IMG/VR virus record: IMGVR_UViG_3300025151_000348
Location: 1-21,680 of that record
Source: a virus
Direction: 5' to 3' (one strand)
Length of the DNA stretch: 21,680 nt
Part shown: positions 2,546 through 19,717 of the stretch, in pieces
Numbering within the stretch: the stretch's first letter is position 1
How the letters are laid out: every line of letters starts with the position of its first letter
The notes under the pieces: model-generated
The model's database searches: none
Told to the model about the DNA's origin: nothing
What the model saw: the letters and a program-made list of their open reading frames with translations, nothing else
Position numbers and translations under genes: made by a program

Positions 2546-3235
2546 CTATCCTCCTTGTGGAAAGTAATTTTGTGGTGTAATGTAAACAGAAGTTCTTTGA
2601 CCATCCTCTGTTAAAGCTCTTTGTAATTCATCTTCATATAATAATTTATTTTGCTGTACTAATTGTGGATTTTTTTTCATAGCTAAATAATAAGAGAGTC
2701 CTGCAACCATACAAGGAATAAAACGAAAAACCACATCTGCTTGATTTGTATACGCACCAGTATCTTCTATTCTTTTTAAATAATAATATTTTACATAAGT
2801 GTAAGTTGATGCATCTGGTGTTTGATACAGAGTTATTGTTGGAGTCGTTTGTCTGTCCACATAATATTGACTAGGTTGACCTTGTGAACCTTTGTTAGGT
2901 AAGGCTGCATATTCACTCCTTGAAATTTTTGTAAGAGAGACATCGTTTGTAGATGAGGTAGTTCCAGTAGTTGTGGAAACATAAGCCTCTAATATGTCGT
3001 TTGCGTTGCTTGGTGCTGTGTAAGTTGCTGTCCCTGCTGTTAGTTCTTGTTCTTTTAATTCTACCTTCCATAAGTGAACCCCTCGGTTTCCCCATTCGCT
3101 GAAAAGAATATTTAAACTTCGCCTTGCTGATTTTAAATCCTTTCCAGAATTAGTGCGAACACCACATCGTTCATAGGCTTCCTCAATGATGTCATCTATG
3201 TCTAAATCAAAAGCTGTTGTTCCAGAAGTAGCCAT
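2546..3235 (-). CDS. Tail adaptor / head completion protein (gp4/gp11-like)
   Basis: A 229-residue protein. The opening DIDDIIEEAYERCGVRT, then SARRSLNILFSEWGNRGVHLWK (to about residue 58), is the typical helical signature of podoviral head-completion and tail-tube adaptors such as P22 gp4 and T7 gp11: alpha-helical N-terminus, beta-rich middle, then a helical region AGLSYYLAMKKNPQLV. Such proteins form a ring under the portal and stabilise packaged DNA. The P22-type portal encoded in the same window supports this. It is the first of the set of neck genes in this operon. Assignment to gp4 or gp11 specifically is not possible by eye. Confidence 0.75.
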   Translation of the reverse strand: MATSGTTAFDLDIDDIIEEAYERCGVRTNSGKDLKSARRSLNILFSEWGNRGVHLWKVELKEQELTAGTATYTAPSNANDILEAYVSTTTGTTSSTNDVSLTKISRSEYAALPNKGSQGQPSQYYVDRQTTPTITLYQTPDASTYTYVKYYYLKRIEDTGAYTNQADVVFRFIPCMVAGLSYYLAMKKNPQLVQQNKLLYEDELQRALTEDGQRTSVYITPQNYFPQGG

Positions 3236-3243
3236 AGTTCACC

Positions 3244-3924
3244 CTACATAACACCTTTGAATTTTATTCCTTTAATAGCTTGTCCACCTCCACGAACTAT
3301 TCCTCCTTCTACTTTTTTATTTTCAGTCATAGCTTTTTGAATGGCTTCTCCTCTAGTTCTTTCATATTTACTAAACATACCATCACCATCTAAATCAGCC
3401 TTCGGTGACAAATTCATTCCTCCTTCACTTAAACCTTTCCTAGGTTTTTCTTTGCCAATTTTTCTTCTTTGTTTACCATAAGCAGGGGGGACAACTTTAA
3501 ATTTTCCAATCAACCCTTCTAGAGCTTTTCTTTGCTCTTTTTCAGTTAAAACACCTGGTCCAATAACTTCTTTTTTGTTTGTAGTTTTTTTCTTTTTAGG
3601 AAAAACAGTTGGAGGAGGTGAACCTTCAGGTCTATCACCAGATAGTTTAACTTTTGATTTATTTTTATTTTTTAAAATAGTCGCTGCTCCTGCACCTATC
3701 AATGCAGCTTTAACACCTTCCGTCATAGCACCGTTTTTTAAACCCTTAGCTTTAATTTTTTTTATGCCCTCTGTAACTCCACCTTCTTTTTGTCCCATTA
3801 GTTCCATTATTTTTTTCATAGAGGTATTTTCGTTTACTTTATTCTTACCGTATTTTTTTTGTAATCTTTTAATAAGGTCGCCTTTTTTAAAGTCTTTAAA
3901 TTGTTCTCCTAATATTTTAGTCAT
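3244..3924 (-). CDS. Lysine-rich protein with an EF-hand-like loop
   Basis: A 226-residue very basic protein with repeated KKxK tracts. Residues 67-90 (AMTEGVKAALIGAGAATILKNKNK) include a small hydrophobic Ala/Gly stretch that could be a membrane-touching helix. Residues 177-188 read DLDGDGMFSKYE, which places D, D, D, G, a hydrophobic residue and E at positions 1, 3, 5, 6, 8 and 12 of a canonical EF-hand or dockerin-type calcium loop. The C-terminus ends IKGIKFKGVM, similar in style to the C-termini of neighbouring basic proteins. A virion location, perhaps an internal or ejected protein, is inferred from its place next to the neck genes. No enzyme motif is visible. Confidence 0.6.
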   Translation of the reverse strand: MTKILGEQFKDFKKGDLIKRLQKKYGKNKVNENTSMKKIMELMGQKEGGVTEGIKKIKAKGLKNGAMTEGVKAALIGAGAATILKNKNKSKVKLSGDRPEGSPPPTVFPKKKKTTNKKEVIGPGVLTEKEQRKALEGLIGKFKVVPPAYGKQRRKIGKEKPRKGLSEGGMNLSPKADLDGDGMFSKYERTRGEAIQKAMTENKKVEGGIVRGGGQAIKGIKFKGVM

Positions 3925-4109
3925 TATAGCACTCCTTTATAATAATCTGCTAATCCACCTTTTGCTTTGTTTTGAGGTATTTTAATTCCATATTTTTTTA
4001 ATATCTTTTTTGCTTCTGCAACTGAAGGACCACCCAAAAGTGCTTTATTAGGGTTTTTTATTGTATCTTTAGCTATACGAATCATTCTTTTTTCAATTTC
4101 ATCTGGCAT
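3924..4109 (-). CDS. Small Lys-rich protein with GGLADYYKGVL tail
   Basis: A 61-residue basic protein: a helical N-terminal part (MPDEIEKRMIRIAKDTIKN) followed by a Lys-rich stretch and the C-terminal peptide GGLADYYKGVL. The same peptide, with the last residue changed, ends the adjacent upstream gene. The ATG is a single base after the stop of that gene, and its own stop overlaps the next start by one base. Length and Lys content are like the other small proteins of this cluster. I do not recognise a family or function. Confidence 0.65.
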   Translation of the reverse strand: MPDEIEKRMIRIAKDTIKNPNKALLGGPSVAEAKKILKKYGIKIPQNKAKGGLADYYKGVL

Positions 4110-4147
4110 TTAAATTACTCCTTTATAATAATCTGCTAATCCACCTT
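3931..4147 (-). repeat. 31-bp exact direct repeat at the 3' ends of two genes
   Basis: Positions 3931-3961 and 4117-4147 are identical over 31 bases. Both encode the shared C-terminal peptide KxGGLADYYKGV or its core, in the same frame, at the end of adjacent small genes. The copies are 186 bases apart, which is also the length of the 61-codon-plus-stop gene. Identity stops abruptly on both sides. Confidence 0.85.
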
Positions 4148-4397
4148 GAACTGCAAAAGTTTTTACATTTGTTGGTTTACCACCAACACCTTGAGCTTTA
4201 GCTCTTTTTCTTTTTACTGCACTTTTTCTTTGTCCTTCACTCATTCTTCTAGCTTTTGCTAAAGGAACACATTTCGGATATTTTCTTTTAGCATCTGCTT
4301 TTTGTTTACTTCTACCACAAGGTGCAAACGAACCATCTTTTTTTTTACTTCCGATGTCTACCCACTTTTGAGCAAACCATTTTTTCAAACCTGACAT
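4110..4397 (-). CDS. Small basic phage protein (KKWFxxKWVDIG family)
   Basis: A 95-residue protein beginning MSGLKKWFAQKWVDIGSKKK and continuing with CGRS, KYPKCVPLAKARRMS and a Lys/Arg-rich segment. I recognise this block from small proteins of unknown function in cyanophages and other marine phages (DUF5872 is my best recollection of the family name). The two Cys residues at 27 and 43 are spaced in a way that could bind metal, but this is not established. It ends GGLADYYKGVI, matching the next gene in the operon. The start overlaps the stop of the upstream 88-residue gene by one base. Role unknown; virion association is inferred from the structural neighbourhood. Confidence 0.7.
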   Translation of the reverse strand: MSGLKKWFAQKWVDIGSKKKDGSFAPCGRSKQKADAKRKYPKCVPLAKARRMSEGQRKSAVKRKRAKAQGVGGKPTNVKTFAVQGGLADYYKGVI

Positions 4398-4663
4398 TAC
4401 TTCAATAAATCTTTATAGTAAGATTTTGCAGAACTATTTGTGCCATAATCACTTTGTATAGCACTTCCCATAACTTCGTGTGTATCTATAAAGTCTCCAG
4501 TTGCAACTGGTTTAGGACCTTTAAAATCTTTTCTTTTTACACCACTTGGGTCTTTAATTTTTCCAGCACATATTTTAGATGCATACGCATTTGCATAGGC
4601 ACTTGGGTAAACCTTAAATTTTCTTTTAGCAGCTGCTTTGCCTCTTGGACATAGTTTTGTCAT
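4397..4663 (-). CDS. Small basic phage protein (LCPRGKAAAKRKFKVYPSAY family)
   Basis: An 88-residue protein whose first 50 residues, opening MTKLCPRGKAAAKRKFKVYP with SAYANAYASKICAGKIKDPSG after it, form a conserved block that I know from many marine myo- and podovirus genomes as a protein of unknown function. Two Cys residues (5 and 32) and many Lys/Arg suggest nucleic-acid or metal contact, which is unproven. The C-terminus ends SAKSYYKDLLK, a looser version of the YYKG tail of the two following genes. A plausible ribosome site (GAGGTGT) lies before the ATG. It is the first gene after a 43-bp gap behind the oxygenase gene. Confidence 0.7.
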   Translation of the reverse strand: MTKLCPRGKAAAKRKFKVYPSAYANAYASKICAGKIKDPSGVKRKDFKGPKPVATGDFIDTHEVMGSAIQSDYGTNSSAKSYYKDLLK

Positions 4664-5810: not shown

Positions 5811-6119
5811 TTAACATCTCCATCGTCTACGAGCTGCACATATTCTTTTTTTAGGTGTTTTTTGACAATTTATATTGTGCATTTTCATTTGTCCTTTACT
5901 TCTAGAACAATAAGACTTTCTTCTTTTTTGTCTAGACTTGCTTGGTTTTTTTTCTGTCACAGCAGTCTTGAGTTTAGAGCCAGGATTGTCTCTTCGGTAT
6001 TTTTCAACACCTTTTTGAGTCATTCCTGCTCCAGACTCTGTAGACCTAAAATACTTCTTGGTTTTTGGTGGCATACCACCATTTTTAAAACTAAGAAGCT
6101 CTGCTGTGTATTTATCCAT
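5811..6119 (-). CDS. Basic Cys-rich phage protein (GAGMTxKGVxxYRRxNPGSKL family)
   Basis: A 102-residue protein from the ATG at 6119; a GTG at 6134 would add five residues. The core reads GAGMTQKGVEKYRRDNPGSK, then LKTAVTEKKPSKSRQKRRKS, YCSRSKGQMKMH and a C-terminal RRRWRC. I recognise this as a family of small phage proteins of unknown function (DUF6321 is my recollection of the name). It is rich in Lys and Arg with four Cys residues. The start overlaps the stop of the virion gene upstream by eight bases (ATGGATAA), and the stop is followed directly by the endolysin ATG. DNA or RNA binding is plausible from charge but unproven. Confidence 0.75.
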   Translation of the reverse strand: MDKYTAELLSFKNGGMPPKTKKYFRSTESGAGMTQKGVEKYRRDNPGSKLKTAVTEKKPSKSRQKRRKSYCSRSKGQMKMHNINCQKTPKKRICAARRRWRC

Positions 6120-6717
6120 AGTATACTGTTGCACTTACAACACTACCTGAAGGCAAATCTATAAAAGCACCTTCTCTAAACAAAATACCATCATCAGGTA
6201 TATAAGGTTCAATATAATCCTTTGTGGTTGTAGCCACAGTGTAGAAAAATTTAGTTGTACCTGTTTGAGAAGATTCTTTAAAACTTATGTCTGCTACAGT
6301 TCCTCCTGTTGTAATCTGTGCACCTTTAACTCTTGTTGCTCCAGTAAATATAGCTCCAACTGTGTCTGCACCATTACCAGCAGAAGTGTTAGTCCCAACT
6401 GCTCCATCTACTGCTATTTGTGTAACAGTAGAAAAGAACACACTACCAGTAACTGTAGTGTTATTAGGACCAGTTATATCCTCCGTAATGGTCGAACCAG
6501 AAGCATCCGTTCCAGTCACAGTAAATGTTCTTGCAGATATGTTTCCAGTAGAAGTTAAACTAATAGTAGAACCCACATTTGTTCCTGCATAAGCTCCAGT
6601 ACCAGCTGCTGTAGCAAGAGACATATTACCAGCTCCTCCAAGAGTTTGAGCAGCTGCCACACTTGTCGTTGAGGCTGCTGCTGGTTTAAAGGTTTTAACT
6701 TGTAGTTGTAAACCCAT
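6112..6717 (-). CDS. Ala/Thr/Gly-rich virion protein
   Basis: A 201-residue protein with a beta-rich, low-charge body (long Thr/Ser/Gly/Ala stretches such as GSTISLTSTGNISARTFTVTGTDASG) and a more ordered C-terminal part containing KDYIEPYIPDDGILFREGAF and ending SGSVVSATVYYG. This composition is common for capsid-decoration or fibre subunits of marine phages. The PYIPDDGILFREGAFIDL segment has the look of a conserved structural motif, but I cannot name the family. It follows the 238-residue virion protein after 11 bases and has an AAGGAGA site. It could decorate the capsid or form part of the tail; the sequence does not decide. Confidence 0.65.
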   Translation of the reverse strand: MGLQLQVKTFKPAAASTTSVAAAQTLGGAGNMSLATAAGTGAYAGTNVGSTISLTSTGNISARTFTVTGTDASGSTITEDITGPNNTTVTGSVFFSTVTQIAVDGAVGTNTSAGNGADTVGAIFTGATRVKGAQITTGGTVADISFKESSQTGTTKFFYTVATTTKDYIEPYIPDDGILFREGAFIDLPSGSVVSATVYYG

Positions 6718-7659: not shown

Positions 7660-8658
7660 TTATTTAAAAAAAATCAACTTTTGTTTATAAGAGTTATCAA
7701 AACCATTGGATTTCTCAAACTTATCGTTTATCCAATCTTTTTTACCATCAGCCCAAAACAAATCTTTTCGATTCGTATAGATATCTTTTACTAAAGGTCT
7801 AGACCAATTTATATCGTTGTTTCTCTCTATTAATTTTTCTTTGTTGTCATCTTTTCTAAACACTATGCAATACTCGTGTGTTTTTAAGCAATTCAAATTA
7901 GTAATTGCTTGTACATATAAAGGATGTCTTTTTGCAGGACTCATCTCTAAAATTATTTCATCGTGATATGTTAAAGTATTTTTTAATACTTTTTTTGTGT
8001 CACCAACAAAGTCATAAAATGCACCATTAATTCTAAAGTTTGCTAACACAACTACAAAAAACCCACTTGGCTTCAATACCATCGATGCTTTTTCTAGTAT
8101 TTGACTATACTCCTTTAAAAATGCATCATATGTTTTTATATCTGTAAGTTGACCTTCTACACTTTCATATTTTTCAATATTAAAATAAGGTGGGCAAGTA
8201 TAAATCATATCTGCATAATTTTTATCTAAATGATTTAATATATTAGAACTACTTGTATTTATTAACTTTAATTCACCCATCTCTCTTTCTTTGGATATGT
8301 CTTCATATTGTTCTTGTGCCTCTTTTAAATTACTTTCTATAACTTCAAAACCTGTGTAATTTCTTTTTAATAAAGTAGAAACTAAAGGTCTAGAACTTCT
8401 ACCTGCAAATGGGTCGACTATCTTATCATTTTCTTTTGACCACATTTCAATAATTCTTTTTGCGTACTCGGAATTGAACTTTGATAAGAATGAACCTCTA
8501 CCTTTACCTATAAAATTTTCTTGTTTATTATTTTCATATGATTTTTTATCATTGACCATTTTGTCAATATTATTACCTCTAGAATATTCCCAAAAAGATT
8601 TAGGTTCGTATGACAGTTCATACTCTTTTTGTTTTCTCATTCTGTCCACATATTTCAT
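7660..8658 (-). CDS. DNA methyltransferase (N4-cytosine/N6-adenine type)
   Basis: A 332-residue class I SAM-dependent DNA methylase. The SAM-binding motif DPFAGRSSRP lies at residues 82-91, with TLLKRNYTGFE after it, and the catalytic motif TCPPYF at 154-159, the (D/N/S/T)PPY class used for exocyclic amino methylation of C or A. The motif I to IV order is that of gamma-type or related enzymes. I prefer ATG at 8658 over ATG at 8691, because AAGGAT lies seven bases upstream of it and the upper ATG falls inside a GC-rich hairpin. No restriction endonuclease gene lies nearby, so this is probably an orphan methylase used for protection or gene control. It forms a two-gene unit with the winged-helix protein upstream. 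Target sequence unknown. Confidence 0.85.
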   Translation of the reverse strand: MKYVDRMRKQKEYELSYEPKSFWEYSRGNNIDKMVNDKKSYENNKQENFIGKGRGSFLSKFNSEYAKRIIEMWSKENDKIVDPFAGRSSRPLVSTLLKRNYTGFEVIESNLKEAQEQYEDISKEREMGELKLINTSSSNILNHLDKNYADMIYTCPPYFNIEKYESVEGQLTDIKTYDAFLKEYSQILEKASMVLKPSGFFVVVLANFRINGAFYDFVGDTKKVLKNTLTYHDEIILEMSPAKRHPLYVQAITNLNCLKTHEYCIVFRKDDNKEKLIERNNDINWSRPLVKDIYTNRKDLFWADGKKDWINDKFEKSNGFDNSYKQKLIFFK

Positions 8659-8678
8659 TTTTTTATCCTTATAGTTGT

Positions 8679-8696
8679 GGGGGATTTTCATCCCCC
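8679..8696 (-). promoter_or_regulatory. GC-rich hairpin before the methyltransferase start
   Basis: On the minus strand GGGGGAT, a GAAA tetraloop and ATCCCCC form a perfect 7-bp stem, conspicuous in AT-rich surroundings. It sits between the stop of the upstream regulator-like gene (8707) and the ribosome site AAGGAT (8665-8670) of the methyltransferase. There is no U-run after it, so it is not a standard terminator. It may act on mRNA stability or translation. Confidence 0.5.
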
Positions 8697-11432: not shown

Positions 11433-11897
11433 TTAGGATTTACGACCACCACCAAAAGTAACACGAGATTGTCTGTCAATATTGACTGGCATCTCAGGTC
11501 GTTGTTCCCTTAGAATGTCTTGGTCAACTGCTTTTACTTGGTCAGTAGTCTTGTTTTTAAAATACTCACTGCGTTGCTCAACCATTTCTTCAGGAATCCT
11601 CGCTAACACGAGACCTCCAACTCCAATTAAACCACTATACTGTCCGTTAGCTATTACTGGGTAATCGTGTTTGCCAATTCGTTTTGTTATCTCCTCGGCT
11701 CTTACAAATTCCCAACCTTCACGAAGTTTTTTTGATACATTAGCTGTATCATCTTGTCCCATCGTTTCGGTTCTAATCCAACGGTGTTTATAACCTTTTG
11801 GAGCAGGTGGTGCATCTAAACTAGATGGTGGCATCCACTGTTTTTTTCTGGTCTCTCTCACTGTGGAAGTTCGTGAGCTTCTATTTACATTGTCCAT
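11433..11897 (-). CDS. Conserved phage head-operon protein
   Basis: A 154-residue basic protein. It opens MDNVNRSSRTSTVRETRKKQ with WMPPSSLDAPPAPKGYKHRW and IRTETMGQDDTANVSKKLRE following. The middle is WEFVRAEEITKRIGKHDYPV, and the end is RQSRVTFGGGRKS. The GYKHRWIR and GWEFVR segments form a small beta-domain that I have seen in marine phages between the scaffold and capsid genes. No catalytic motif is visible. A role in capsid assembly or as a minor virion protein is inferred from position. AGGAGG lies before the ATG. The 55 bases after the stop hold no gene. Confidence 0.65.
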   Translation of the reverse strand: MDNVNRSSRTSTVRETRKKQWMPPSSLDAPPAPKGYKHRWIRTETMGQDDTANVSKKLREGWEFVRAEEITKRIGKHDYPVIANGQYSGLIGVGGLVLARIPEEMVEQRSEYFKNKTTDQVKAVDQDILREQRPEMPVNIDRQSRVTFGGGRKS

Positions 11898-11906
11898 AAG
11901 GACCTC

Positions 11907-12845
11907 CTATTTTACAAATTTGGCATATTCTTCCAAAGGCACTCCTAGTTTTTTAGCTATCGCTACTTGTGAACGAGTGAGTTTCACAACTCTGCGACCC
12001 TCTTGTTTTCTTCCAGCAGAAGCAACAGTTTGGGTAGGTCGTTTTTCTTGCTCAAACTTATTAGGAAAATATTCCCTCATTTTGAAATTTATCTCATTAT
12101 AGTAATCTTCACTCTCTGGGTCAAACCCCTGAGTGACTAAATCCTCGTGTATTCCATAAGCTGCATTTGTCATAACCTTGTCTTTACCGAACCAATCATT
12201 TTTTTGTGCCCAATCTTTTGCTTTAGGAGAGGGTTCTTTTACCTCTTGCTTAGGTTGAAGTGTTGGCTCTGGAGTTGTATTTTCTGGTTCTTTAGTAACA
12301 GCTTCTTTTTTTTGCTCTGTTAATATTCTAGCTTTTTCTTTTTCTACAGATAATTTAGCTAATAAATCATTAGCCTCCATAATTTTATCTGCATCATTAT
12401 TTTCAATAGCATTTTTTAAATTACTTTTAACTTGTTCTCTTTGTGCATCTATTCGAGCATCAAATTCTTTTATATAATTATCATCTACTGTGTTTAGTGT
12501 AGTCTCAGCTTTTTTGTATTTGTCTTGTAATCCTTTTGCATAATCTAAAGCAGCTTTCTCTCTTCTCTCTGCCTCTCTATATTTTCTTGTTAATTGGTCA
12601 ATTCTTCTTTGTACACTTCCAGATATTTCATTAAGATTACTTTCTTTTTTTGGCTCTTCTTTTGGTAAAACTTTTGTTTCAGTATCTTTTTTGTTAGGGT
12701 CAGTATACCCCAAATCAACTTCTTCTAATTTTACTTCTTCTTTTTCTTTTTCTTGCTCTACACTTAATTCTTTTTCTTCGTGAGCATCTTCTCCTACTGA
12801 TATTTTATCAGGTTCTGCGTTTAATTGTAATTGCTCTTGTGCCAT
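11907..12845 (-). CDS. Capsid scaffolding protein
   Basis: A 312-residue highly charged protein with the layout of a phage scaffold. The N-terminal acidic part (1-70, many Glu/Lys/Val) is followed by a long predicted coiled coil from about residue 76 to 175, including RRIDQLTRKYREAERREKAA. A Pro/Glu/Thr linker follows (190-212). The C-terminal helical part includes WAQKNDWFGKDKVMTNAAYG, a segment typical of scaffold proteins of marine phages, and ends KLGVPLEEYAKF. Scaffolds bind the inside of the procapsid and leave before DNA packaging. It is placed between the GroES-like gene and the capsid genes, with an AAGGAGAT site. Confidence 0.8.
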   Translation of the reverse strand: MAQEQLQLNAEPDKISVGEDAHEEKELSVEQEKEKEEVKLEEVDLGYTDPNKKDTETKVLPKEEPKKESNLNEISGSVQRRIDQLTRKYREAERREKAALDYAKGLQDKYKKAETTLNTVDDNYIKEFDARIDAQREQVKSNLKNAIENNDADKIMEANDLLAKLSVEKEKARILTEQKKEAVTKEPENTTPEPTLQPKQEVKEPSPKAKDWAQKNDWFGKDKVMTNAAYGIHEDLVTQGFDPESEDYYNEINFKMREYFPNKFEQEKRPTQTVASAGRKQEGRRVVKLTRSQVAIAKKLGVPLEEYAKFVK

Positions 12846-12854
12846 ACTATCTCC

Positions 12855-13274
12855 TTAAAATAGTGCGAGGATGTCCTCTGGTTTCTCAATTGTACCAATG
12901 ATTTCATCATCGTTTAATATTCTATGCTCACCGTACTTAGTCTTAAACCTTGCACCAGCATATCTTCCGTAAATAACAAACTGTCCTTCTTTACACCAAG
13001 CACCGTTTGGAAATCTATCTTTATCTTTATAACATAACTCTCCCATCTTAATAACTAATCCTACTACGGTAGTCATTTCAATAGTTTCTTGTGTTTTATC
13101 AGATAAATATACACCACCATCAGTTTTTGCTTTGCCAGACCAAGGTCTCACTAAAAGTCTATATCCAACTGGGTTAGGTATAAGTTTTAAATATTCTTCG
13201 GTTTGTTTTGCTCCCTTTGGGACTAATGCATCTGTTTCAGATGTTTCGTATCTTTTAGGTTTTATAAGTTTCAT
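12855..13274 (-). CDS. GroES-like co-chaperonin (Cpn10 family)
   Basis: A 139-residue protein with a Cpn10 core: GYRLLVRPWSGKAKTDGGVY (residues 37-56), then LSDKTQETIEMTTVVGLVIK and the C-terminal GQFVIYGRYAGARFKTKYGE, HRILNDDEIIGTIE. The segment GKAKTDGGVYLSDKTQET corresponds to the mobile loop that docks on GroEL, though its hydrophobic tip is unlike the bacterial IVL. An N-terminal extension of about 36 residues is longer than in host GroES (about 95 residues). Phages such as T4 (gp31) replace host GroES to fold their capsid protein, and the position two genes before the scaffold fits that use. No GroEL partner is present, so the host GroEL is presumed to serve. Confidence 0.85.
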   Translation of the reverse strand: MKLIKPKRYETSETDALVPKGAKQTEEYLKLIPNPVGYRLLVRPWSGKAKTDGGVYLSDKTQETIEMTTVVGLVIKMGELCYKDKDRFPNGAWCKEGQFVIYGRYAGARFKTKYGEHRILNDDEIIGTIEKPEDILALF

Positions 13275-13453
13275 TCTTCCTCTTTTTGCAGGTTATTAAT
13301 ATCCTGAAGCAACGACTCGTATGCGTTGAGCTTTCCTTTAGCATACTGCAATCTTTCAGGTGTGTCTATATTGTAGACGATATTTTCTTTAATAGCATCG
13401 ATTTCTTTTTTTATCAAATTTTTTATTCCAAATAAAGTGTCTATGTCGTACAT
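13271..13453 (-). CDS. Small coiled-coil protein
   Basis: A 60-residue protein predicted as two helices (LFGIKNLIKKEIDAIKENIV and RLQYAKGKLNAYESLLQDIN) ending NLQKEEE. I do not recognise it. The ATG overlaps the methyltransferase reading by 13 bases and its stop overlaps the GroES-like start as ATGA, so it sits in a tightly coupled string. A role in assembly is only suggested by position. Confidence 0.6.
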   Translation of the reverse strand: MYDIDTLFGIKNLIKKEIDAIKENIVYNIDTPERLQYAKGKLNAYESLLQDINNLQKEEE

Positions 13454-13989
13454 ATTTCATTCCCCCATACATCCCAACCTTGTGTTTTTTGTCTAGCAAA
13501 TAATTCTATTCTAGGAACATCGCCACAAAGTTTTACTATTTTATCCCTTACGCAATCTGGTTTTTTTGAGTGTTGTTCTATTGGTTCATATATTATTTGA
13601 TGCACACTACTAGAAACTCTTTTAGGTTTTCCTTTAGTTGCAAGTAAACATATTTCATTATTTGCTCTAGTCCAATACCCTAATCCCCAAAATAAACTAT
13701 CACTTTTTTTATTTTTTTTCATCCAACTAAATCCACAAGTTTTATATGTAAAACCCCAATCGGTTATTGTTTTTATTCCTTGTAATAAACAAGGATAGGT
13801 TACCCACAAAAATAATATACAATTATCTTTTGAAATAGATTGTATTGGAAGATTGCTAATATCTTTTTCACTCATACATAAATAATGTTTTTCAGGACTT
13901 CTATCTTTACCTCTGTCAGAATAAGTTTTAAATTTCCAAGGTGGGTCTGCATATATAATATTATATTTCTTGTCTGGAAAAGGTATCAT
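13441..13989 (-). CDS. MT-A70 family adenine methyltransferase
   Basis: A 182-residue protein with the catalytic DPPW motif at residues 15-18 (YNIIYADPPWKFKTYS), the ILFLWVTYPCLLQGIKTITDWGF segment and a C-terminal RIELFARQKTQGWDVWGNEI. All are typical of the MT-A70 family, which methylates N6 of adenine. Bacterial and phage members act on DNA and are usually about this length. The hallmark SAM contacts near the C-terminus (LFARQ) are present. No restriction enzyme is adjacent. Its start overlaps the stop of a 40-residue basic gene as ATGA. It may protect phage DNA from host nucleases; the recognition sequence cannot be read from here. Confidence 0.9.
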   Translation of the reverse strand: MIPFPDKKYNIIYADPPWKFKTYSDRGKDRSPEKHYLCMSEKDISNLPIQSISKDNCILFLWVTYPCLLQGIKTITDWGFTYKTCGFSWMKKNKKSDSLFWGLGYWTRANNEICLLATKGKPKRVSSSVHQIIYEPIEQHSKKPDCVRDKIVKLCGDVPRIELFARQKTQGWDVWGNEICTT

Positions 13990-15144: not shown

Positions 15145-15690
15145 TTATTTTATATTACAAGTCATAGATAGTCTTTTATTTTTTATATCTATTACTTGAT
15201 GTTCTACTCCTTTATCAAACCATATGCAGTCTTGCTGTGACACAGTTTTTTCTTTTCCATTTATAACCCACAACCCCTCTCCATATATATTTTTTACTAT
15301 TACTGGATAGTCGTGGCTGTGTTTTATGTAACTTACTGTTTTTTTGCCAGTGCCAAAATAAAAATTACAATTGCATTCTATGTTAAAAGTTTTATTTAGC
15401 CATTGTTGAATAATCCAAGTGTCTTTTACAAATCCTCCAATATTTGATAAAATTAATGTATATCCATCCTCATAGGCTTTTATACATTCTAAAGAATTTA
15501 CATATCCATCTTTGTCAAAAAAATCTTGTGAGGTTTTTCTACCATCTTCTAATATAGCTTCAATACTTGGTTGACCACAAATGTAGTGTCTAGGAAATCT
15601 TCTTCTATCAAGTAACCTTTCTAAAATATCTTTTTCAGTAAGATTAATATTTTTGTTTTTTAGAGTTTCTATGAATTTGTTTTCAATCAT
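15145..15690 (-). CDS. Cupin/JmjC-like protein, possible Fe oxygenase
   Basis: A 181-residue protein. After a helical N-terminus the segment AYEDGYTLILSNIGGF, TWIIQQWLNKTFNIECN, then NFYFGTGKKTVSYIKHSHDY and PVIVKNIYGEGLW matches the beta-barrel start of the Cupin_4/JmjC group. That group includes ribosomal oxygenases (LNxLNxxF, then NxYxxxxxxxxxxHxDxHDxFVxQxxGxKxW). Candidate metal residues are H124, H126 and D127 and, in KGVEHQV, H164. The usual HxD does not align perfectly, so a metal-binding cupin without oxygenase activity is possible. It starts four bases inside the preceding methyltransferase gene (ATGA). Substrate unknown; pairing with that gene is notable. Confidence 0.65.
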   Translation of the reverse strand: MIENKFIETLKNKNINLTEKDILERLLDRRRFPRHYICGQPSIEAILEDGRKTSQDFFDKDGYVNSLECIKAYEDGYTLILSNIGGFVKDTWIIQQWLNKTFNIECNCNFYFGTGKKTVSYIKHSHDYPVIVKNIYGEGLWVINGKEKTVSQQDCIWFDKGVEHQVIDIKNKRLSMTCNIK

Positions 15691-16286
15691 AACTCTCTTT
15701 TATAAATTAATTTTCTCTCCCCTTCTACCACTGGTTTAAAAGCCATCTTACCTTCTAAAAACCAACGAACTGTTTTTAGATTCATAGTTTTGTAATCATC
15801 AATGATTATTAAACTGTCATTAGTCATTCGTTTCATAAAAAAGTCTACTTCTTTTTGTACAGCTTGACTTGTGTGAGGTCCGTCTAAATGAACGATTGCA
15901 TATTGTCCCAAAATGTAAGTTTGTCCTTGTATAGAGAAAGGGTAACCCTCACTCATCGTTTCAAAAAAATATTCATCAGGAAACTCAAAAAAAGCAAACT
16001 CTTTGTATTTACTTAACTCTGATACAGTTTGCACTTTCATACTATCTGTATAATCAGCAGTGTACGGAGGTCTATCATCGTAATGTTTATAATTTAAATT
16101 TCCGTATGGGTCTATCGCAATATGCCTATAATTTGCAACACCTTTTGCAATCACTGCATCCATAATAGTTTTTGAACCTAACCCTTTACGCAATCCTATT
16201 TCACAAGTTAGTACCGTATCTTCTAATTTTAATTTTTCTATTTCTTTAGTTATGAGCTCATACTCAAGTGAATCACCCTCAATCAT
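15687..16286 (-). CDS. Class I SAM-dependent methyltransferase
   Basis: A 199-residue protein. The SAM motif is LTCEIGLRKGLGSKTIMDAV at about residues 26-45 (ExGxxxGxS type), with the acidic residue of motif II in IAIDPYG (57-62). AIVHLDGPHTSQAVQKEVDFF (130-150) and LIIIDDY (159-165) complete the Methyltransf_24-type layout known from O-methyltransferases of sugars, antibiotics or lipids. It is not a DNA methylase type. Its start overlaps the stop of the 54-residue gene by eight bases, and its end overlaps the cupin gene (ATGA). Joint action of the two on one substrate is an inference. Confidence 0.75.
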   Translation of the reverse strand: MIEGDSLEYELITKEIEKLKLEDTVLTCEIGLRKGLGSKTIMDAVIAKGVANYRHIAIDPYGNLNYKHYDDRPPYTADYTDSMKVQTVSELSKYKEFAFFEFPDEYFFETMSEGYPFSIQGQTYILGQYAIVHLDGPHTSQAVQKEVDFFMKRMTNDSLIIIDDYKTMNLKTVRWFLEGKMAFKPVVEGERKLIYKREL

Positions 16287-16443
16287 TTTGCCTCATCTTT
16301 TCTATTTCTTTGCGTTGATGTAATATTTCTTTTCTTTGGTTTTCAAGAAGTTTTCTCTGCATCTCTACTTCTTGTATTTTATCAACTGGTTTACAAATAT
16401 ATTTTTTTTTACTAGGAAAAATAATGATATTGTTCTTTATCAT
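16279..16443 (-). CDS. 54-aa small helical protein
   Basis: The gene starts at ATG 16443 (ATGA overlap with the preceding stop) and ends at 16279, overlapping the methyltransferase start by eight bases. The product begins MIKNNIIIFPSKKKYICKPV and continues as a helix rich in Gln, Glu, Lys and Arg (RKLLENQRKEILHQRKEIEK). Junctions on both sides support it as a gene. The helix may form a coiled coil. No family recognised. Confidence 0.6.
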   Translation of the reverse strand: MIKNNIIIFPSKKKYICKPVDKIQEVEMQRKLLENQRKEILHQRKEIEKMRQND

Positions 16444-16916
16444 TTAACACCAATAAACTTTTTTCCTTTTACTTGTATTGGTTTTACTCCCTTAATATCA
16501 CTTCCTTGTACACCATTTTCACGATGAGGACAACCTAAATTTGATAATGCTCCTACTTTAAAAGGGATTACTAATTTAACATTCACTCCTTTATCTCTTG
16601 GATTTTTATACGCACCAACATTTAGTTTTCCTCCTAACAAATCTTTAGAGTAATTTGCTGTTGTGGAAAGTTTATCTTTAGTTAAATTTAATTCACCTTC
16701 TCCTAAAGAAGTTCGTAGTTTAACATTTTTAAATTTTTTCTTTTTTACATTATAAGTGGCTTTTACATCTGTTTTTGGTTTTATTTTTTTTTCATAACTT
16801 AAATCTCCACTAGCTCTAAACTTAAAACCTTTTCCAATTTTTGCTAAATCTCCCTCTTGCATCCCTTGTGGGTTAGGACCTTTTTCTGGTGGTAACGCAC
16901 TACTTCTTTTGTTCAT
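16440..16916 (-). CDS. Basic marine-phage protein downstream of portal
   Basis: A 158-residue basic protein. It opens MNKRSSALPPEKGPNPQGMQ, a motif that I recognise from a conserved unknown of marine phages. A long beta-rich middle follows (LSYEKKIKPKTDVKATYNVK, VKLRTSLGEGELNLTKDKLS), then GCPHRENGVQGSDIKGVKPI and the ending VKGKKFIGVK. The repeated strands could form a beta-barrel or sheet. Its start overlaps the portal stop by 17 bases. The C-terminus resembles the end of the 226-residue Lys-rich protein at 3244 (KFKGVM). A virion role is plausible; function unknown. Confidence 0.65.
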   Translation of the reverse strand: MNKRSSALPPEKGPNPQGMQEGDLAKIGKGFKFRASGDLSYEKKIKPKTDVKATYNVKKKKFKNVKLRTSLGEGELNLTKDKLSTTANYSKDLLGGKLNVGAYKNPRDKGVNVKLVIPFKVGALSNLGCPHRENGVQGSDIKGVKPIQVKGKKFIGVK

Positions 16917-19251
16917 TTTTTTTCTCCCTTGCTACATTTAATTTTTCTTCAGCTATTCGTATTCTTTCTTCAGCTTGTTCTTCATTATCTTCTCGTTTCA
17001 TCTTTTCTAAATCAAGTTTCTGCTCAAACTCCCCCATCTTTCGTTCTTCCACATCTACATGCTCTTGTATTTTTCTTTGCATATCTAAAGCTCGTAAATC
17101 CATCTCTTGTTGTTTTAGTTGCACCAATGGGTCTTTCTTTTCTTCTGCACTTTCTAACAATTGTAACTCAGAAGTAAGTTGTGCAATCTTATCTGCAACC
17201 AAAGATTCTGTAATAACTAAAAATGCTTCAGGATTATCTTTTTGCATAGCAAATGTTTCTGGTTTTTCTTGCATTTCTTGTAATATTAAAGCTCTTGCTT
17301 TGAAAGAAAGATGCTCCATAATGTGTGCTTGTAATAACGCATACACCATAGGATTAATTTGCACCATTCTACTCTTAATAAACGAAGTATGTGCAATAAT
17401 GTGTGCATCGTGGTTTTGTTCTGGGTATGCTTTTGGTATTTCCATTCGTAAAGCCTCTGCATTTTCTATCGATGGGTCGAGAGGAGTGGGTACTCTCTCT
17501 GGTTTCAGCAAAGTATCAATTTGTTTCGTGCCAAGTGCTTCATATACCCTTCTATATGCCTCACGAACATTGTGAAGTTGTGGATTCGACTGTGCAATCT
17601 GCAATTGTGTCTGTGCAAGAGTGACTCTTTGAGCCATTGAGAAGATATTTGGGTCTGCAATTGGAATTACATCTACTTCTGGTGAAAAATCAGCTAATTT
17701 TATCAATCGATTGCCACCATATACAGCATATGGATAGATTGGAGGTAAATATGTGCCAAAAACATTCGACAAAAGCCTAAATTCTTGTCTCATTGCATAG
17801 TAACATCGTTTATGTATGGCACTCATCACTCGTGAGCCTCGTTCCAAGAGTGCAATTGTTGTTCCGACAGCTCTATTTTGTGCATCATTGCCTATTGCAT
17901 TGTCTGTAATGGCTGCAAATCTCTGTCCAGCTTGTACAACAAAGCCTAGCAATGAAAAAAGTACCGAACTTGGCTCTTTAAATGGCAAAATTTGGAATTG
18001 GTCTTTAATATTACCACCAGGTGCGTCTACATCTCGGAACTCACCAGGCTGAAATGGTTGTTCATCATCCCTGATTCGTAGTCCACGAGACTTGAATCCA
18101 GCAGGTAAGTTACTTAATGTCCCAGCATCTAGCAATTGTCTCAATGCAGCAGTCGCAGTTTTTGATAATCCACCAATCATATGTATTAAACCAAAGCCAT
18201 AGAACCCAAGACCAGGTAAAAACTTGTAATGCACAAAGTATTCTTTTCTTTGAAACAATGGGTCGTTCATTTCATAGTTACGATATATGGATAATACTTC
18301 TTGTGAACCTTCATCAATGGTCACGATATACGGAACTTTTACATTTTTCTCTGCATCCTCAATCGCATACTCATCTAAATCTAAATCAATATGCATTTCT
18401 AATATATTAAACTGATATTCTTTTTCTCCAGTTGGAGATACTCCATCCATAGAATCATATTTTTCTTGAACCTTATCTTCATCTATTCGTGAAGGAATAA
18501 TTTCTACATCTCTATAAAATCCAGTTCGCTGTTTTTTTAATACATCGTTTTCGTTCATTTTAATTAGGTGCGTGATTCGTTCACAGTCTTTTAAGTCTGT
18601 TGCATAATACGGAACGATTAAATCTTCAGCAGGAATAAACTTCGATACTGCTCTTTGCATTACTTCATCGTAATATATTTTTTTAAATGCTGAACCAGCT
18701 AACGGTAAATAAAATAATAGTTGGTCAAAGTCTGGAGTGTATTCTTCCATAACTTCCATTAACATATAATTCATAAACTCTTTTACTCTTTGAGCTTGTT
18801 GTTCCTTCTCCCTTGTCACATCTCCCACTACTTGTGTGCGAACTGGTCCGTCAGACGGTATTAATTCTTTATAGGCTTGTGCTTGAAATTGTGTAACAGA
18901 CTCGGCTAGTAGTGGATGCGTAACGGAACTCGCACCTTGGAACGGTCTGCTTTCATTATCATATTTAAAACCAAGTAAATCTAATCCAGAAGTATACGAC
19001 TTTTCCCAATCACTTCTAGACTCTTTATCTCGTTTATAATCAGCAAGTAAGTCAGAAGATATTTTAGCAAGTATGCGTTCATCCATATCCTCAGCAAGGT
19101 TAGAGTGAAACTCTTTTACTTGTTCAGCTAACTCTTCCACTTGTTCTTGCATCTCTGCTTTATCAGTTACTTCAACTTGAACTTCTTCTTCCTCTGTAGG
19201 TTCAGAAGTTTCGGTTTCTTCAACCTCAGTTTTATTTTCTTCTTCTATCAT
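16900..19251 (-). CDS. Portal protein, P22-type
   Basis: A 783-residue protein, close to the length of P22 gp1 (725 residues) and far longer than siphovirus portals. It has an acidic N-terminus (1-40). The conserved central region contains FVHYKFLPGLGFYGFGLIHM (clip/stem side), then IGGLSKTATAALRQLLDAGT, LSNLPAGFKSRGLRIRDDEQ, FQPGEFRDVDAPGGN and GTTIALLERGSRVMSAIHKR, which I take as the portal core. The C-terminal 110 residues are a charged coiled coil that matches the barrel of P22-type portals. Twelve copies form the DNA entry channel at the capsid vertex and bind the terminase. It starts in an ATGA overlap with the 130-residue gene. Confidence 0.9.
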   Translation of the reverse strand: MIEEENKTEVEETETSEPTEEEEVQVEVTDKAEMQEQVEELAEQVKEFHSNLAEDMDERILAKISSDLLADYKRDKESRSDWEKSYTSGLDLLGFKYDNESRPFQGASSVTHPLLAESVTQFQAQAYKELIPSDGPVRTQVVGDVTREKEQQAQRVKEFMNYMLMEVMEEYTPDFDQLLFYLPLAGSAFKKIYYDEVMQRAVSKFIPAEDLIVPYYATDLKDCERITHLIKMNENDVLKKQRTGFYRDVEIIPSRIDEDKVQEKYDSMDGVSPTGEKEYQFNILEMHIDLDLDEYAIEDAEKNVKVPYIVTIDEGSQEVLSIYRNYEMNDPLFQRKEYFVHYKFLPGLGFYGFGLIHMIGGLSKTATAALRQLLDAGTLSNLPAGFKSRGLRIRDDEQPFQPGEFRDVDAPGGNIKDQFQILPFKEPSSVLFSLLGFVVQAGQRFAAITDNAIGNDAQNRAVGTTIALLERGSRVMSAIHKRCYYAMRQEFRLLSNVFGTYLPPIYPYAVYGGNRLIKLADFSPEVDVIPIADPNIFSMAQRVTLAQTQLQIAQSNPQLHNVREAYRRVYEALGTKQIDTLLKPERVPTPLDPSIENAEALRMEIPKAYPEQNHDAHIIAHTSFIKSRMVQINPMVYALLQAHIMEHLSFKARALILQEMQEKPETFAMQKDNPEAFLVITESLVADKIAQLTSELQLLESAEEKKDPLVQLKQQEMDLRALDMQRKIQEHVDVEERKMGEFEQKLDLEKMKREDNEEQAEERIRIAEEKLNVAREKKNEQKK

Positions 19252-19640
19252 AATAATTTAGTTTTTTTATTTTTTCCTAATTTACATTTAGCTTTTACAA
19301 ATTTTCCTTGTTTAGCTCTTTCAAAATAAAAAGGGTACATTTTTGGTGAGGAAGCTATTCTTGCTTTTTGTTGTTCTACTCGACTACGAACTTCACTAGC
19401 TAAATCAGGTGCATCTAAATCTGGAGTGGTTGGAGTGTCTGTAAAATAACTAAATGGATTAATCCCAGTAATTTGTGAAAATTTATCTAATCTCTCTCCA
19501 AAAGTTTTTTTATCTTTTTTTGCTTTAATTACATCATCATCTTTAGTTGTGTAACTAGAAGTAATTTTACTTTTCTTTTTTTTGATAGGACCTTTCTTAA
19601 TCCTTCTCTCTTGTTCTAATAATCTTTCTTTTAAAGTCAT
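19248..19640 (-). CDS. Small Lys-rich protein between terminase and portal
   Basis: A 130-residue basic protein from ATG 19640. I prefer this start because the stop of the 26-residue gene upstream overlaps it as ATGA; a TTG at 19658 and an ATG at 19652 lie inside that small gene. The N-terminus is very Lys-rich (TLKERLLEQERRIKKGPIKK), the middle holds DKFSQITGINPFSYFTDTPT and the C-terminus is basic (KAKCKLGKNKKTKLL). The INPFSYF segment may be a short interaction motif. I do not recognise a family. Its stop overlaps the portal start as ATGA. A head-joining or packaging role is inferred from position only. Confidence 0.65.
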   Translation of the reverse strand: MTLKERLLEQERRIKKGPIKKKKSKITSSYTTKDDDVIKAKKDKKTFGERLDKFSQITGINPFSYFTDTPTTPDLDAPDLASEVRSRVEQQKARIASSPKMYPFYFERAKQGKFVKAKCKLGKNKKTKLL

Positions 19641-19717
19641 TTGTCCCCACATTGACAAAGTTTGCCAAATAATCTTTTTTTTATTTTTTTATATAATTTT
19701 TTTATCTTCTTGAACAT
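19637..19717 (-). CDS. 26-aa cationic peptide with Cys-x-Cys
   Basis: This gene reads from ATG 19717, with AGGAAAG just upstream, to TGA overlapping the next ATG (ATGA). The product has a Lys-rich amphipathic stretch (MFKKIKKLYKKIKKRLFGK) and then C-Q-C-G near the end. Reading-frame fit, ribosome site and overlap support translation. Its composition is that of a membrane-active or nucleic-acid-binding peptide, without proof. I recall similar short phage peptides but no name. Confidence 0.55.
   Translation of the reverse strand: MFKKIKKLYKKIKKRLFGKLCQCGDK

Follow-up and report, generated by a model that had tools for sequence, protein, structure and literature searches.

Recurring C-terminal peptides on unrelated small basic proteins of HTVC023P-related ocean phages resemble address tags

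Why should two neighbouring genes of a marine phage, encoding otherwise different proteins, finish in almost the same peptide? The question is raised by the window, that is, the whole 21.7-kb stretch of DNA analysed here, a fragment of a tailed marine phage that encodes a portal (phrog_1216), a major head protein (phrog_371) and a large terminase, together with an SU10-type adaptor, an M15 peptidase and a GroES-like gene (gene calls were made in this analysis). On its minus strand, a 61-aa protein (3924-4109) ends in GGLADYYKGVL (codons 3927-3959) and a 95-aa protein (4110-4397) ends in GGLADYYKGVI (codons 4113-4145), as the initial annotation had described; both endings are assigned to tail class A. 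Among isolates, the best DNA matches of the 95-aa protein are phage 023Pt_psg01 and the Pelagibacter phages HTVC027P and HTVC023P. Pelagiphages of the HTVC023P type have a wide distribution in the ocean (PMC9599517), and the only annotation of most of the proteins treated here is "hypothetical". Compared at the sequence level, phages related to HTVC023P carry a few short end-peptides on many unrelated small basic proteins, and this pattern looks like an address tag.

The pair itself has a short history. Behind the shared tail lies a 31-bp exact direct repeat (minus strand; 3931-3961 in the 61-aa gene and 4117-4147 in the 95-aa gene), which had also been reported correctly. Identity extends over exactly 31 bp, with mismatches flanking both sides, and the chance expectation for such exact repeats in the window is about 2e-9. 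The copies are 186 bp apart, which is the length of the 61-aa gene. In a closely related contig (L003), whose 95-aa gene shares 280/285 DNA identity with that of the window, the tail (...GGTGGATTAGCAGATTATTATAAAGGAGTGATATAATGACT) is joined directly to the homologue of a 226-aa gene and the 61-aa gene is absent; the junction is the same in L218, another close relative, and in two further contigs (L226 and L473). The order in the window is tail, 61-aa body, tail and then the 226-aa gene, and the second tail copy retains the TAATGACT junction to the 226-aa gene. Taken together, the L003-type junction without the 61-aa gene and the retained TAATGACT junction indicate that the tail was the site at which the 61-aa body entered, between the genes for the 95-aa and 226-aa proteins, leaving a duplicate of the tail. 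Judged from these junctions, the window pair is a recent insertion and the tail copy is recent in this pair. Homologues of the 61-aa body in two other contigs (L083 and L084) end in CRGMGAAIRGGDFKGVK instead. The initial annotation had allowed that the tail might occur only in this pair, as a recent duplication. Recency is right for the pair, but restriction to it is wrong for the tail, which sits on many bodies, and recent duplication is therefore rejected as the sole cause of the tail in general.

The window holds further tails, again on the minus strand. The looser endings noticed beside the pair are all where they were said to be: SAKSYYKDLLK ends an 88-aa protein of the PSAYAN family (phrog_27331; 4397-4663; class A tail NSSAKSYYKDLLK, codons 4400-4438), IKGIKFKGVM ends the 226-aa Lys-rich protein, which has an EF-hand-like loop DLDGDGMFSKYE (3244-3924; class B tail RGGGQAIKGIKFKGVM, codons 3247-3294), and VKGKKFIGVK ends a 158-aa Lys-rich protein downstream of the portal gene (16440-16916; class B-like tail VKPIQVKGKKFIGVK, codons 16443-16487). 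A 136-aa Lys-rich protein upstream of the portal gene (19248-19658) bears a class D tail (AKCKLGKNKKTKLL, codons 19251-19292), and its relatives have similar tails. The tagged genes lie in the interval that separates the M15 peptidase from the head-tail adaptor, and next to the portal; the SU10-type adaptor gene (2546-3235, minus strand) lies directly downstream of the tagged cluster. Several proteins of one contig (L122) end in xTK[LM]Y (VARGSRLVKVKPTKLY, VARGNKLARSKPTKLY, IMAKTKLGKNKATKLY and GCGKVMNDRRKVTKMY) and resemble the KTKLL tail of the window at 19248. Many Lys-rich proteins, tagged or neighbouring, contain a single EF-hand-like loop, DxDxDGxxxxxE/D (window 3244-3924, L050, L202, L362 and HTVC023P gp53), as does a stand-alone 41-aa protein of the T7-like cyanophage P-SCSP2 (11831-11956).

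A search of IMG/VR for the tails, with comparison of the sequences upstream, placed the tagged bodies in unrelated families and found the tail kept in relatives. The idea of a repeated C-terminal tag on otherwise different basic proteins, first put forward from this locus, now extends to at least 6 bodies for GGxxxYYKG and at least 14 for RGGG..F.GV, always at the end of the protein. The motif GG[LMV]xxYYKG-h-h-stop (h, hydrophobic) ends 66 distinct proteins, whose unrelated bodies include the KWVDI family (to which the 95-aa protein belongs), PSAYAN, the LYRGE family, two Lys-rich families and the 61-aa body. The class B end RGGGxAx[RK]GxxFxGVx, scanned as GGxAx[RK]GxxFxG[VI]x-stop, finishes at least 134 proteins. 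Another tail, KTPIY, was discovered through within-genome tail comparison and occurs on 54 proteins of at least three body families; five contigs have it on two unrelated proteins each. These body counts are conservative, since families were clustered by blastp, which tends to merge Lys-rich sequences. The motifs are strictly C-terminal, with 0 internal copies in about 3 Mb, and shuffled proteins yield 0 to 0.4 tail motifs per set. Sharing can reach further into the protein: a profile built from PSAYAN proteins only matches 18 KWVDI proteins (best E 1e-13) through a module of about 30 aa, GSxIKxDxDGxxxxNxSxxxYYKG. Bare tails used as queries against isolate phages gave almost no matches, the queries probably being too short.

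Just as one tail occurs on many bodies, one body occurs with many tails. PSAYAN bodies carry classes A, B, C, D and E (ends YYK[GD]hh, F.GV., KGFGKARR, CGxx..KKT or GMNRDAIGKNS), KWVDI bodies carry classes A, B and F (ends GGxxxYYKG, NPSxxxYYKG, KYYGGM, F.GV. or GGFMARR), and the 61-aa family carries classes A and B. Genomes of the clade usually have several tail classes, often with at least two proteins per class. Typically the PSAYAN and KWVDI proteins have class A tails and other Lys-rich genes have class B; of these, one immediately precedes the adaptor and varies freely in its body, and one is close to the portal. One class D tail is present in many clade genomes and class T in some, and a single contig (L268) has two A, two B and two T tails. 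In HTVC023P, a phage of the SAR11 strain HTCC1062, gp51, gp52 and gp53 are tagged. Both bodies are present without such tails in HTVC027P and HTVC106P. The same is true of P-SCSP2 (Autographiviridae), where the PSAYAN and KWVDI proteins are encoded between the scaffold and MCP genes. Three proteins of P-SCSP2 (L377; 11658-11828, 12086-12346 and 16945-17397) end in RKSLRVA, RSSLKIA and EFLRIA, the first two being its PSAYAN and KWVDI families, and these ends are possibly a different tail vocabulary.

If each genome kept its own key, tails should be most alike within a genome. A tail similarity score of at least 40 was reached by 0.055% of within-genome pairs versus 0.036% of between-genome pairs, and because this difference is slight we reject genome-specific keys and regard the tails as a shared vocabulary. 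Nor does tail type track capsid sequence: with MCPs more than 90% identical, the KWVDI gene ends in GGLADYYKG, KYYGGM or MLIETYYKG, which counts against a simple reading of the tail as a capsid lock.

What, then, would such a tail do? Virion docking, in the manner of the T4 capsid-targeting sequences (CTS), is in our view the best explanation, with a probability of about 0.45, and it rests on gene context, on charge and on one neighbour family found in cyanophage virions. The tagged bodies are basic, with a median net charge of +0.16 per residue versus -0.016 for the rest. An untagged neighbour in the window, the 107-aa DUF6321 protein (5811-6134, minus strand), has a homologue in the C-terminal domain of gp137 of Synechococcus phage S-CREM2, a protein detected in the virion proteome with 4 unique peptides (PMC10665884, Table 3). 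One PHROG profile, 727, matches both DUF6321 and, weakly (E 0.002), the body of the 95-aa protein, a hint that these small families are linked. No virion proteome of the clade turned up in a search of the literature, and no published account of the tails was found in literature covering few subscription journals.

The bodies themselves belong to or resemble uncharacterised families (DUF5872 and DUF6321; PHROGs 23735, 27331 and 727 for the 95-aa, 88-aa and 107-aa proteins), and Pfam and PHROGs returned no function for the tagged bodies. The 95-aa protein matches the phrog_23735 profile at E 8e-30 and Pfam DUF5872 at 15 bits, below the gathering cut-off of 27.5. The phrog_23735 family has 81 positions and its match covers residues 1-82 of 95, which indicates that the tails are not part of the family definitions. 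An AlphaFold model of the 95-aa protein (27 sequences) has a pLDDT of about 70-80 at residues 11-70 and below 50 at residues 73-95; the model of the 88-aa protein is poorer and places a low-confidence helix in the tail. There was no significant fold match for the 95-aa body in PDB or BFVD, and the 95-aa and 107-aa proteins had no sequence relatives in PDB.

We hypothesize that the tail serves as a docking module: a short C-terminal stretch, probably unfolded, on which selection acts at the peptide level and which recurs on unrelated basic proteins encoded in the structural gene module. It would be bound by a virion or assembly partner, whether shell, scaffold, portal or adaptor, and this binding would take the tagged proteins into the particle, as the CTS does for the internal proteins of T4; there, the Lys-rich bodies may contact packaged DNA or other virion parts. 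The several tail classes of a genome (A, B, T and D) would address different partners or positions. In the window, the DNA encoding the tail also served as the junction for the insertion of a new body, the 61-aa gene, so that bodies can be exchanged without loss of the tag. The fullest form of this proposal, in which a vocabulary of C-terminal address peptides places interchangeable basic cargo at different virion sites and the tag DNA is the joint that captures new cargo genes, we consider doubtful.

The CTS of T4 is N-terminal and is removed by the prohead protease. The ocean phage tags, unlike the CTS, are C-terminal in all occurrences and fall into several classes, and their packaging is something we infer. 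The likeness lies in a short conserved peptide common to otherwise unrelated proteins, as on IPI-III and Alt of T4, and in the Lys-rich bodies of the tagged proteins, since lysine contacts the packaged DNA in T4. T4 internal proteins bear a short conserved tag on highly diverse small proteins of which only the tag is conserved (PMC3012670). Encapsulin cargo is recognised by a short C-terminal targeting peptide (PMC7925596), and to this the predicted flexible C-terminal peptide on the folded body of the 95-aa model is similar. A shell of the HK97 lineage is another likeness, but almost every encapsulin encloses just one cargo protein (PMC8229669). Here, by contrast, there are about six small proteins and three or four tail classes in a tailed phage, portal and terminase genes accompany the shell gene of the window in a phage head set, and tail type is independent of MCP sequence.

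The tails might instead direct their proteins to a target in the infected cell (host membrane, nucleoid, a host enzyme or a chaperonin partner) rather than to the particle. Tagged proteins that are all of unknown function and mostly small and basic would suit such a role, as would a tail type independent of MCP sequence and the GroES-like gene carried by phages of the clade. However, the tagged genes lie inside the structural module beside the adaptor, portal and M15 peptidase, the body families of P-SCSP2 lie between scaffold and MCP, and the neighbouring small basic family has a virion-detected homologue. We therefore regard a target in the cell as unlikely.

A second alternative is that the tail is chiefly a DNA linker, with bodies swapped by homologous recombination at the tail DNA and the peptide having little function. 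The window offers the clearest case for this, in that its 61-aa gene is flanked by two tail copies, while in contigs such as L003 and L218 a lone tail leads straight into the gene downstream. Yet nothing about a DNA linker would restrict it to the final codons and tie it to one reading frame, and across bodies the same tail residues recur with different codons. In within-genome class B pairs, shared residues are encoded by 101 identical versus 122 synonymous codons. These pairs differ from the window pair, whose tail DNA is identical, and their mostly synonymous differences imply that they are not recent DNA copies and are either old or convergent at the peptide level. A role chiefly as linker is thus improbable. 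So, to a slightly greater degree, is mutual association of the small basic proteins into a core or nucleoprotein without an external receptor, which would fit the many genomes with at least two proteins per tail class and the low-confidence helix predicted in the tail.

Least probable of all is that the shared peptide is a by-product of translation, arising where the stop codon overlaps the following start (TAATG) and the Shine-Dalgarno (SD) sequence of the next gene, AAAGGAGT, spells K-G-V in the codons of the tail. In both GGLADYYKG tails of the window, AAAGGAG lies 7 to 8 nt 5' of the next ATG, at Shine-Dalgarno distance: the copy at 3932-3938 is the likely SD for the 226-aa gene, which has a TAATG overlap, and that at 4118-4124 the likely SD for the 61-aa gene. 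When a GGxxxYYKG tail is coupled to the following gene through TAATG, 41/42 cases use GGA or GGG for the KG glycine, while the first glycine of GG is mostly GGT, and GGR codons are enriched with coupling in class A (p=0.017) and class B (p=0.004). QG or DGV is also a frequent ending of the MATSG adaptor gene, and unrelated genes may show an SD effect too. In these respects the tails are like termination-reinitiation gene pairs, the TAATG overlap and the SD inside the upstream gene explaining part of the KG codons, but coupling leaves unexplained the rest of the motif and the tails without a coupled gene. SD coding cannot yield GGLADYY, RGGGxAxRGxxF or NPSxxxYYKD, and KTPIY contains no SD. Class B retains xGVx in every case that lacks the overlap. 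Because loci found by the tail pattern are biased, coupling was tested again on loci selected by means other than their tails, and there the xGV end was kept in 20/20 genes without TAATG overlap, including all 5 with no start within 18 nt. Uncoupled class B tails mostly use GGT or GGC, and do so more often than coupled ones; among coupled NPSxxxYYKG (A2) tails, over half have GGC or GGT. The uncoupled tails lead us to reject the SD as sole cause, while it is still a real contributor to the KG codons. That uncoupled tails keep their residues, and that KTPIY exists without an SD, points to peptide-level selection plus modular shuffling. Our results show that the tails are reused as modules on unrelated bodies, that they are strictly anchored to the protein end and that they persist whether or not translation is coupled. 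Mimicry of the scaffold, whose C-terminus EEYAKYVK weakly resembles the tail, was unconvincing, the scaffold family ranking 2nd of 45 on the YYKG profile with scores of at most 5.7 versus more than 20 for true tails.

If the tails do signal docking, sequence alone would mark which small proteins of unknown function travel in the particle, foreign proteins could be loaded into these heads by means of the tails, and the T4 targeting sequence would have a C-terminal counterpart with several classes. Even if they do not, tails and bodies evolve as separate modules, and so whole-gene orthology misses the conserved part. A tagged family of about 131 aa (LYRGE...GRWFSPD...; L195, L225 and L228), with no Pfam match, looks like a folded and possibly enzymatic domain; if an enzyme, it would be the clearest cargo candidate.

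Other features of these genomes may be noted. Four contigs with a class B tail, one of which (L473) additionally has a GGLADYYKGVI tail, are found in the bin of a Maricaulis MAG (IN14) and are probably phage contigs within it (L470, L471, L473 and L481). In the window, a GroES-like co-chaperonin (Cpn10) is encoded within the head module (12855-13274), with no GroEL seen in the window; there are three methyltransferase-like genes (N6_N4_Mtase, 7660-8691; MT-A70, 13441-13989; Methyltransf_24, 15687-16286); and a 323-aa protein (82-1053), with no PHROG match, consists mostly of repeats of about 66 bp (SGVSSTSAVGSVT units). A second module, LxKASxxHxxQAKTLxxI, is present in several unrelated tagged proteins (L209, L214, L254 and L112) and, to judge by this distribution, is a further shuffled building block; it stands nearly alone as a 36-aa protein, HTVC027P gp51 (L370, 12240-12350).
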